NCBI GenBank assembly: GCA_913057155.1
Contig: CAJXNV010000003.1
Coordinates: 1 to 49,167 of the forward strand
Origin: an uncultured Actinomycetes bacterium
GTDB lineage: Bacteria > Actinomycetota > Actinomycetes > S36-B12
Direction of reading: 5' to 3'
Length of the DNA stretch: 49,167 nt
Both the position numbers and the translations under genes were made by a program. The notes under the pieces are model-generated. The model ran no database searches. It was not told the origin of the DNA and saw only the letters and a list, made by a program, of their open reading frames with translations. The number at the start of each line of letters is the position of its first letter. The stretch's first letter is position 1. This document shows positions 41,298-45,072 of this stretch, one piece after another.

Positions 41298-42539
41298 CTA
41301 AGCCGACCGGCGACCGCGGTACTGGGAACGCACCCGCTGGAGTCCGTGTGCGATGAACGCCCCGACTTGATCGTCCTCGACGAGGAAACCGTCGTGTCCG
41401 TACGGGGAGCGCAGGACGTGCAATTCGTCGGCACCGGGAGTCAACTCGGCGAGTTCGGATTGCAGTCGCAGCGGGAAGAGGCGATCGGAGTCGATACCGA
41501 CCACGGTGAGGGGCGCATGGATCGTGGCCAAGGCCGAGGCGACGCCCCCGCGCCCACGTCCGAGATCGAACAAGGTCATCGCCTCGGTGAGGGCGATGTA
41601 GGTGTTGGCATCGAAGCGTCGGGCGAGTTTGTCGGCGTGGTGATCGAGGTAGGACTCCACCGCGAAGCGTCCTCGTTCGAACGGCATGTCATCGGCGTGT
41701 GGCGGTTCCGTCTGTTCCGGCGGGTACGGGTCCTCGCCGGTTTGCGCCCCGCGCCCGAAGCGAAGGTCGAGTTCGGTCTCGCTGCGGTAGGTCAGATGCG
41801 CGATCCGACGTGCCAAGCCCATGCCGCGATGCGGACCATCGCCCGGCGCTGCGTCGTAGTAGTCGCCGCCGCGGAACTTCGGATCCATCCGGATCGCCTC
41901 GATCTGTGCAGTGTGCGTGCCGATTTGATCGGCGGTCACCGCAGCCGTCGAACCCAACACGAGCCCGCCCCGCACCCGCTCGGGGTAGCGGACCATCCAC
42001 TCCAGTACCCGCATTCCGCCCAGGGACGGCCCGAGCATCAGTGCCCATTCGTCGATGCCGAGTCGGTCGCTCAGCGCGCGCTCCACCTCGACCATGTCGC
42101 CGACGGTGACGGTGGGGAAACGCGAACCCCAGGGGCGTCCGTCGGGGGCCGCGCTGACCGGTCCCGTCGTGCCCTGGCACCCGCCCAGGACGTTGGCACA
42201 GACCACGAAGTAGCGATCGGTATCGATCGGGCGCCCCGGACCCACGAGACCGGACCACCATCCACCGGTCGCATGCCCCGGGCCGGCGTCGCCGGTCACG
42301 TGCGAATCACCGGTGAGGGCATGCGCCACGTAGACCGCATTGGACCCATCGGCGTCCAAGGTGCCCCACGTCTCGTAGGCGACGCGCACGGACGGGAACA
42401 CGAATCCCGATTCGGTACGCGTGGGCCCTAGGTCGAGGAAGCGTCGTTCACCGGGCGGATCCCCCTCCCGCCACGCGGCGGTGGCGGGAGGGGGCCCGGA
42501 GTACTCCAAGGGTCCGTAACCCGTGGGGGCTGATGGCAC
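41298..42539 (-). CDS. metX: Homoserine O-acetyltransferase
   Basis: Activates homoserine with acetyl-CoA for methionine synthesis. Alpha/beta-hydrolase fold of 413 residues: VAHALTGDSH and GGWWSGLVGPGRPIDTDRYFVVCANVLGGCQGTTGP are hallmarks. The nucleophile is S172 in LGPSLGGMRVLEW, the acid is D352 in GIDSDRLFP and the base is H382 in YGHDGFLVE. The GTG start lies 2 nt after the metY stop, so metY-metX form one operon under the upstream riboswitch. The N-terminal 25 residues are not conserved. Confidence 0.94.
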   Translation of the reverse strand: MPSAPTGYGPLEYSGPPPATAAWREGDPPGERRFLDLGPTRTESGFVFPSVRVAYETWGTLDADGSNAVYVAHALTGDSHVTGDAGPGHATGGWWSGLVGPGRPIDTDRYFVVCANVLGGCQGTTGPVSAAPDGRPWGSRFPTVTVGDMVEVERALSDRLGIDEWALMLGPSLGGMRVLEWMVRYPERVRGGLVLGSTAAVTADQIGTHTAQIEAIRMDPKFRGGDYYDAAPGDGPHRGMGLARRIAHLTYRSETELDLRFGRGAQTGEDPYPPEQTEPPHADDMPFERGRFAVESYLDHHADKLARRFDANTYIALTEAMTLFDLGRGRGGVASALATIHAPLTVVGIDSDRLFPLRLQSELAELTPGADELHVLRSPYGHDGFLVEDDQVGAFIAHGLQRVRSQYRGRRSA

Positions 42540-42541
42540 GT

Positions 42542-43858
<1,317 letters not shown>

Positions 43859-43948
43859 GGTCTTCTCCTTGTGTGCTCGAGAGTTGTCTCGGTGGCAACT
43901 GGATCAGGCCGGTGACCGTGCATAGGGCGCCGACCTCGCATCCAGTCG

Positions 43949-44074
43949 GGGCCTTGCCCTACGCAAGACCCGCGCTTGCCCACCAGGGGCCAGGTCTCCA
44001 CCGGGAGCACCCCACCGCGGTTGGAGGGTTGCCGTCCAGCAAGCCGGGGCTTGACGCTGGATCTCTTGACCTAG
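43949..44074 (-). ncRNA. SAM-IV-type riboswitch in the metYX leader
   Basis: The leader folds on the minus strand into a SAM-I/SAM-IV-like aptamer. P1 pairs CTAGGTC (44074-44068) with GACCTGG (43996-43990). P2 pairs CCAGC with GCTGG and is capped by the perfect hairpin CAAGCC-CC-GGCTTG. The conserved core CGGCAACCC follows, then ACCC/GGGT with CCGCGG, and P4 CTCC-CGGT-GGAG. Downstream, GGGTCTTGC-GTAGG-GCAAGGCCC forms another stem (43949-43971). The sequence CAAGCCCCGGCTTGCTGG..CGGCAACC is what I recall for SAM-IV in actinobacteria; class is from memory, not a covariance search. P1 contains the DUF4192 stop codon. Confidence 0.85.
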
Positions 44075-45072
44075 GACGGGACTATATCCAATACCGGCAC
44101 ATCCGCCAAGAAGGCCCGCACGGTCTGCGGTGGGACGCCGGTTCGGACGGTGTCCTCGAGTAGGGCTCCGAGCACGTTCCCCGGGTCGTCGAGCAGGCAC
44201 CTTTCCAGGGCCACGTTCGCCCGCACCCCATCCCCGCACAGCCACGCCACGACCCCCGCCGCCGCCGCGACGTTCCCAGCGTGCCCCGGTGGCGTAGCCC
44301 GAGTGCAGCGCAGGAGCGAGAGCAGCACGGGAGCGCATTCACTCGCCGGCAGGTTGGCGGCCGCCAACACCAGCAGGTCGCGCCCCACGGGATCGAGGCA
44401 GGCATCGCGCAGTTGGCGCTCCTCCGGCACCGGGACATGCGGACGCGTTCGGGCATCCCCCTGTCGGTCGTCGGTTGCTCGGGACATGACGTGATCGACG
44501 AAGGTACGCACGCCAGCGAGCGCGGCCGAGCGATCAGCAGGCAACTCCCCCATCTCCTCGTACGCGGCCTCGTCGGCGTCGCACTCGGTTTCGATGCGGG
44601 TCCGCGAAAGCGCCGGTGTCGAGTCCGGGAAGCGCTGTGCTGCCCATTGGCGCGATCTGGCGTCTATCCATGTCCACTCACCTTCTGGGTCGCGCAGATC
44701 GCGCACCTGCGACCCGTGCACCTGCAACATGCCGCGGCACACGACGGGTAGATGCCGCTCGATGGCTCCGCGCAAGCCCTCGATCATGCGTTCGTGGCGG
44801 GTGACGATCACACAGATCGCGGCATCGGCCGGTACATGTCGGGCGGTGGCGAAGAACGCTGCCGCGTAGTCGCCTGCCGCGTTCGCGCCGTGCGAGGGCA
44901 GGTCCGCTCGCTGGGATACGACGAGCCTGTCGGCGCGCAGCCAAAGGCACACCAGGGACTCCACGGGGTAGAAACCCAGTAGGTGCGGCAGGCCCGCCGC
45001 GAGCGCGCCGGGGTCGTGCAGCAGGACGGTTGCTGTCGGATCGATCGATGGTTCTAGGGCGTTGTTCGTCAT
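44071..45072 (-). CDS. DUF4192 family protein
   Basis: A 333-residue actinobacterial protein of unknown function. The N-terminal hallmark is LHDPGALAAGLPHLLGFYPVESLVCLWL, and the second half has LLVLAAANLPASECAPVLLSLLRCTR and CGDGVRANVALERCL, which resemble other DUF4192 members. No membrane segment. It ends inside the first helix of the metY riboswitch, so its mRNA would run into the aptamer. GAGTGT 6 nt before the ATG could be a weak -10. Confidence 0.85.
   Translation of the reverse strand: MTNNALEPSIDPTATVLLHDPGALAAGLPHLLGFYPVESLVCLWLRADRLVVSQRADLPSHGANAAGDYAAAFFATARHVPADAAICVIVTRHERMIEGLRGAIERHLPVVCRGMLQVHGSQVRDLRDPEGEWTWIDARSRQWAAQRFPDSTPALSRTRIETECDADEAAYEEMGELPADRSAALAGVRTFVDHVMSRATDDRQGDARTRPHVPVPEERQLRDACLDPVGRDLLVLAAANLPASECAPVLLSLLRCTRATPPGHAGNVAAAAGVVAWLCGDGVRANVALERCLLDDPGNVLGALLEDTVRTGVPPQTVRAFLADVPVLDIVPS

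Follow-up and report, generated by a model that had tools for sequence, protein, structure and literature searches.

How does a SAM riboswitch with no intrinsic terminator act on the genes behind it, and does it matter that its aptamer begins at the stop codon of the gene in front? These questions are raised by the leader of metY-metX in an uncultured Actinomycetes bacterium of the S36-B12 lineage (contig CAJXNV010000003.1 of assembly GCA_913057155.1), of which we analysed a stretch of 49,167 nucleotides, hereafter the window. The original prediction, made from the sequence, had placed a SAM-IV-type riboswitch upstream of metY-metX, with a P1 helix that shares the stop codon of the upstream DUF4192 gene. 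The genes and the parts of the aptamer are the following.

41298..42539, minus strand: metX, homoserine O-acetyltransferase, 2 nt after metY (NF047917, 515.9 bits, cut-off 475)
42542..43858, minus strand: metY, bifunctional O-acetylhomoserine/O-acetylserine sulfhydrylase (NF005872, 764.9 bits, cut-off 703)
43865..43870, minus strand: AAGGAG, the Shine-Dalgarno (SD) of metY, read from the sequence
43967..44071, minus strand: SAM-IV aptamer (RF00634, 100.4 bits, and pair counts)
44068-44071 with 43993-43996, minus strand: P1, consensus 4 bp
44056-44061 with 44035-44040, minus strand: P2a, intact
44026-44033 with 44006-44012, minus strand: P3, intact
43987-43990 with 43978-43981, minus strand: P5, intact
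43970..44020, minus strand: pseudoknot PK-2, CCGCG at 44016-44020 with CGCGG at 43970-43974, from complementarity
44071..45072, minus strand: DUF4192 gene, an ORF (PF13830, E 2.7e-27) whose TAG stop at 44071-44073 ends at the first aptamer base

The window element is an ordinary member of the known SAM-IV class and, judged by its sequence, a predicted SAM sensor. A search with Rfam covariance models, the check proposed along with the original prediction, matched RF00634 untruncated (model positions 1-116) at 43967-44071 of the minus strand with E 2.4e-17 and 100.4 bits, well above the gathering score of 38 bits, and this is the sole SAM-IV match in the 1.8-Mb assembly. The element leads methionine/sulfur genes of an actinobacterium, and the profile matches bear out the named neighbours DUF4192, metY and metX. 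SAM-IV was found in 76 of the 85 family genomes. In most genera of the family the gene in front of SAM-IV-metY is DUF4192, despite its poor sequence conservation. Elsewhere in the window, 921-988 of the plus strand matches ASdes, an antisense sRNA of M. tuberculosis (RF01781, 69.7 bits), and lies opposite, in antisense orientation, a gene for a fatty acid desaturase (371-1360 of the minus strand, PF03405); this match may be a mere echo of conserved coding sequence.

Helices P1, P2a, P2b, P3 and P5 are all there in the window, and the CGGCAACC core of a SAM-sensing RNA is present at 44027-44034, as had been claimed. The fold first proposed, P1 to P4, stands for the P1 and P2 helices; SAM-IV consists of P1, P2a, P2b, P3, P5 and two pseudoknots and has no P4 of the SAM-I kind (PMC6890682), so the hairpin at 43978-43990 that had been called P4 is most likely P5, and both pseudoknots had been left out. 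In a 38-sequence alignment the SAM-IV helices are paired in 98.6% of cells, with six pairs in P2a and P5 changed on both sides, against at most 50% for control versions in which the structure was slid along the alignment. The four tested pairs of PK-2 form in all 38 sequences without variation, and the two counted pairs of PK-1 in 86.8% of cells; what backs the two pseudoknots is the complementarity of their strands. P1 and PK-2 hardly vary and are thus compatible with the structure but not independently tested by covariation. The minimum-energy fold of the entire leader was discarded as evidence (z = -0.86; 39 of 200 shuffles equally stable; aptamer not recovered).

What, then, of the stop codon? 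The overlap with P1 is real but smaller than described, with TAG contributing only G 44071 to the consensus helix of 4 bp. The 7-bp P1 originally drawn is possible in the window; of 105 loci, just 31 allow the first of the added pairs, and we rejected the longer helix as a conserved trait. The stop falls exactly at the aptamer start in seven of eight loci from the window's genus; this is seen in none of the other genera sampled, where it mostly lies 10 to 90 nt upstream of the aptamer (+3 to +5 in one genus). What does stay in place is a candidate promoter. Each of the 69 family loci has a TANNNT -10 box whose end lies 6-10 nt ahead of the aptamer, usually at -8 or -9 (background, 0.04 matches per position elsewhere), and its distance is constant wherever the DUF4192 stop falls. 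The window carries the following site.

44081..44109, minus strand: promoter-like TTGGCG-N17-TATAGT within the end of DUF4192 (one found, 0.0 expected in shuffles)

A start point would be expected near 44072-44075. In C. glutamicum the measured start of a SAM-IV transcript, 1,374,005, lies 2 nt upstream of the model start at 1,374,007 (PMC3890552). The fixed -10 distance, with this analogy, argues that transcription of the leader probably begins separately, at the aptamer itself, and a leader probably starting at P1 makes the idea of ribosomes arriving from the upstream gene unnecessary. The overlap is an incidental oddity, best read as lineage-specific compaction with a promoter inside the upstream gene, and the regulatory role once suggested for the shared stop codon is not upheld.

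Downstream of the aptamer, the search for a G+C-rich hairpin followed by a U tract returned none at 43800-44400, in agreement with the original prediction, and a Rho gene is present. The features of this part of the leader are these.

43949..43971, minus strand: stem A, 9 bp, with a 5' arm that overlaps the 3' strand of PK-2 by two bases
43934..43937, minus strand: GAGG, the short-ORF SD in relatives, which can pair with the 3' arm of stem A
43855..43923, minus strand: predicted short ORF at the position of the cysteine ORF of relatives, MHGHRPDPVATETTLEHTRRRP and a stop that overlaps the metY start (ATGA); no cysteine

Stem A is exactly the extra stem of the original prediction, and it covaries in relatives: in 23 distinct sequences every cell is paired and two pairs are altered on both sides. 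It was rejected as an intrinsic terminator, having no U tract. Alignment and folding of relatives show its CC-rich 3' arm to be complementary to the G-rich SD of the first downstream ORF. An anti-P1 helix, formed by the downstream GAGGTC with GACC of P1, was also rejected: genus g12 and locus L078 carry AGGGC while P1 stays GGTC/GACC, so the motif tracks the stem A arm and not P1. In folds of the nascent segment of 41 leaders, the first-ORF SD has a mean probability of 0.58 of being unpaired, which drops to 0.35 on PK-2 engagement; it is 0.26 with the 5' arm of stem A removed and 0.43 in shuffles, and single loci, including L029, L036 and L037 of the window's genus, go from 0.66 to 0.20. The nascent segment of the window does not switch (0.26 to 0.25), and its GAGG is paired in all states tested. 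In equilibrium folding of whole leaders the effect of PK-2 vanishes in the window and largely so in the five genus relatives tested. An SD switch would thus depend on co-transcriptional folding, and it is in the window that such a switch has the weakest case.

In the 41 leaders longer than 100 nt, the window's included, the first ORF after the aptamer encodes a short peptide of about nine codons, has an SD and starts about 36-43 nt behind the aptamer. Cysteine makes up 99 of the 414 residues of these ORFs, 34 of the 41 have at least two cysteines, and adjacent cysteine codons occur in 28 of the 41, where dinucleotide-shuffled versions of these stretches would yield 1.7, in loci that are related by descent and so do not count as independent events. 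Peptides such as MCCCRMTSR (L047), MSCCRMPLS, MCCLPCCC and MKICCCTRTVS illustrate the pattern, and ORFs with at least two cysteines come from nine genera of two families. The conserved Cys-codon ORF with its own SD is found in SAM-IV-metY leaders L002-L008, L018-L031, L042-L050, L057, L066-L069 and L078, and a cysteine ORF also occurs in some leaders of other orders (L083, L087, L095). Six genera have only short leaders, without cysteine ORF, and in some short-leader genera the stem A arm can face the SD of metY itself. The cysteine ORF is missing in 14 further SAM-IV leaders from this family, mostly ones ahead of metK (a MetK-like protein), and in the SAM-IV leaders of Arthrobacter and several named genera; at six further sites no such ORF lies ahead of another sulfur gene. 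A genome-wide set of cysteine ORFs was given up, the short patterns being too unspecific.

Other leaders add observations of their own. Second SAM-IV copies before the MetK-like protein (L014, L017, L028, L030, L040, L041, L051, L052, L063, L064) have short leaders, often with a GTG start codon located 38-71 nt past the CAAG at the end of the aptamer. At the level of the class, five loci of one genus with genomes of 7-10 Mb (L093, L097, L100, L101, L106) have a short ORF GTGAGCAAGCGAATGCGCTAG behind SAM-IV, with close variants (VSKRMR and stop) at similar position. An R-M motif is common to these ORFs, to the cysteine ORFs (CCCRM) and to the metL leader peptide of S. lividans (CRRMC, PMC8079986).

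The window departs from this pattern. Its aptamer lies 108 nt from metY, against 201-267 nt in its genus, and MHGHRPDPVATETTLEHTRRRP has no cysteine and hence no run of cysteine codons; those of its genus relatives encode either one cysteine or two (MRCTRFML, MRCTRFMC, MRCTCPI). Comparison of these leaders suggests a likely stepwise loss of the cysteine part, and it is possible that the shortened leader, which stems from an assembly in fragments, is an assembly error. The noteworthy part of the locus thus appears to be the leader of the relatives, SAM-IV plus cysteine ORF, which seems to have been partly lost in the window genome.

SAM repression of biosynthetic genes such as metY-metX is the direction expected for SAM riboswitches. 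In the reading that we prefer, to which we give a probability of roughly 60%, a promoter within the end of DUF4192 would serve the SAM-IV riboswitch alone, independently of the gene in front, and plentiful SAM would lower metY-metX expression as follows: 1) SAM would stabilise P1 and the pseudoknots; 2) engagement of the PK-2 strand would weaken stem A; 3) its freed CC-rich arm would cover the SD of the first ORF after the aptamer; and 4) with this ORF untranslated, metY would be off, through Rho termination of the leader or translational coupling. The cysteine-rich first ORF of most relatives suggests that cysteine supply would act on their metY as well; in the window genome, with its shorter leader and no cysteine codons, only the SAM input would be expected to remain. 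The aptamer, the gene pair, the promoter-like site, the covarying stem A and the lack of an intrinsic terminator are supported by the sequence; how the first ORF bears on metY we infer. No intrinsic terminator and a Rho gene together point to control of first-ORF translation, with Rho or coupling passing the effect to metY, as the best-supported route.

The overlap at P1 offers another way of linking metY to its surroundings: on transcripts that read through, ribosomes ending DUF4192 could perturb P1 and thereby tie metY to translation of the gene in front. The stop does contact P1 in most loci of the genus, and no intrinsic terminator separates DUF4192 from metY; the contact is nevertheless missing in other genera, where the -10 box still holds its distance from P1, and P1 past 4 bp is not conserved, which makes this coupling highly improbable. 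The cysteine codons of the relatives might be a side effect of conservation at the RNA level, in the motif TGYTGTYGTCGAATG, and not a coding signal. The nucleotide sequence itself is partly conserved (e.g., TGTCGAATG), but after in-frame TG the next base is T or C 99 times out of 101, and the runs, far above the number expected from shuffles, survive altered flanks and whole-codon changes of length (MCCC, MCCCC, MHSCCC, MCCLPCCC); we regard a by-product as very unlikely.

In two further readings the short ORF is not involved. The original prediction had suggested control at translation initiation, which is plausible, although probably not on the SD of metY alone, because it is the short-ORF SD that faces the element in relatives. 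A riboswitch acting straight on the SD of metY would suit some relatives with short leaders, where the 3' arm of stem A can pair with it and where, in L003, its unpaired probability drops from 0.71 to 0.18 on PK-2 formation; yet the 11 short leaders as a group merely go from 0.55 to 0.40, and the folded window keeps this SD at a nearly equal accessibility of 0.56-0.61 in all states tested, which counts against it as the sole target. We rejected PK-2 control of the window's metY SD on this last ground and consider the direct reading unlikely in general. Control by transcription only, in which SAM would expose a Rho-loading or pausing site and translation of the short ORF would be irrelevant, agrees with the Rho gene, with the lack of a U-tract terminator at 43800-44400 and with M. 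tuberculosis, whose riboswitches commonly have Rho-dependent leaders (PMC12810186). It may apply to the window, whose ORF has no cysteine, but leaves unexplained the relatives' cysteine codons and the fixed place of their SD, and appears improbable to us.

If control of first-ORF translation does operate, its consequences are of wider interest. The metY leaders of about nine related genera combine a SAM aptamer and a Cys-codon ORF at a nearly fixed distance, with the covarying stem A between them adjoining PK-2. Such leaders may read two inputs, with SAM-IV controlling the Cys-codon ORF and translation of that ORF setting the bifunctional sulfhydrylase, so that both SAM and cysteine would be read and the window genome would be a derivative that retains the response to SAM but no longer the one to cysteine; this is a tentative proposal, to which we give slightly less than an even chance. 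If true, it would amount to compact two-signal control at the methionine/cysteine branch point and would point to a way for SAM-IV to work where no terminator exists.

Several parts of this scheme have known counterparts. Poly-cysteine short ORFs of actinobacteria were reportedly described by Canestrari et al. in 2020. Cysteine-codon leader ORFs known in actinobacteria (PMC1262725, PMC4633059) resemble those of the relatives in their adjacent cysteine codons before sulfur genes and in having no obvious terminator; the mycobacterial ones are described as leaderless, in the available part of the source, whereas the ORF of the relatives follows a SAM-IV aptamer and is preceded by an SD, and that of the window differs in having no cysteine codon. 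The aptamer shows no essential difference from known SAM-IV: it has the architecture of the Mycobacterium sp. structure (RF00634, PMC6890682), and the SAM-IV leader of M. avium MAV_4315 has the same target enzyme, O-acetylhomoserine sulfhydrylase (PMC3774663). These two papers give no description of stem A or an upstream cysteine ORF, and a literature search with incomplete coverage of directly relevant work returned no description of a SAM-IV plus cysteine-ORF leader. The SAM-II riboswitch of S. meliloti metA, as given in the available part of PMC9373788, also controls an SD well upstream of the used start codon; it belongs to another aptamer class and has an intrinsic terminator and, in that text, no cysteine ORF. 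The Mbox and B12 riboswitches of M. tuberculosis have other ligands and aptamers, and the accessible portions of PMC12810186 and PMC11260477 claim no codon-specific sensing of amino acids for them; there, a riboswitch governs a small upstream ORF and Rho or coupling relays the effect, which is a precedent for the leader control that we propose.
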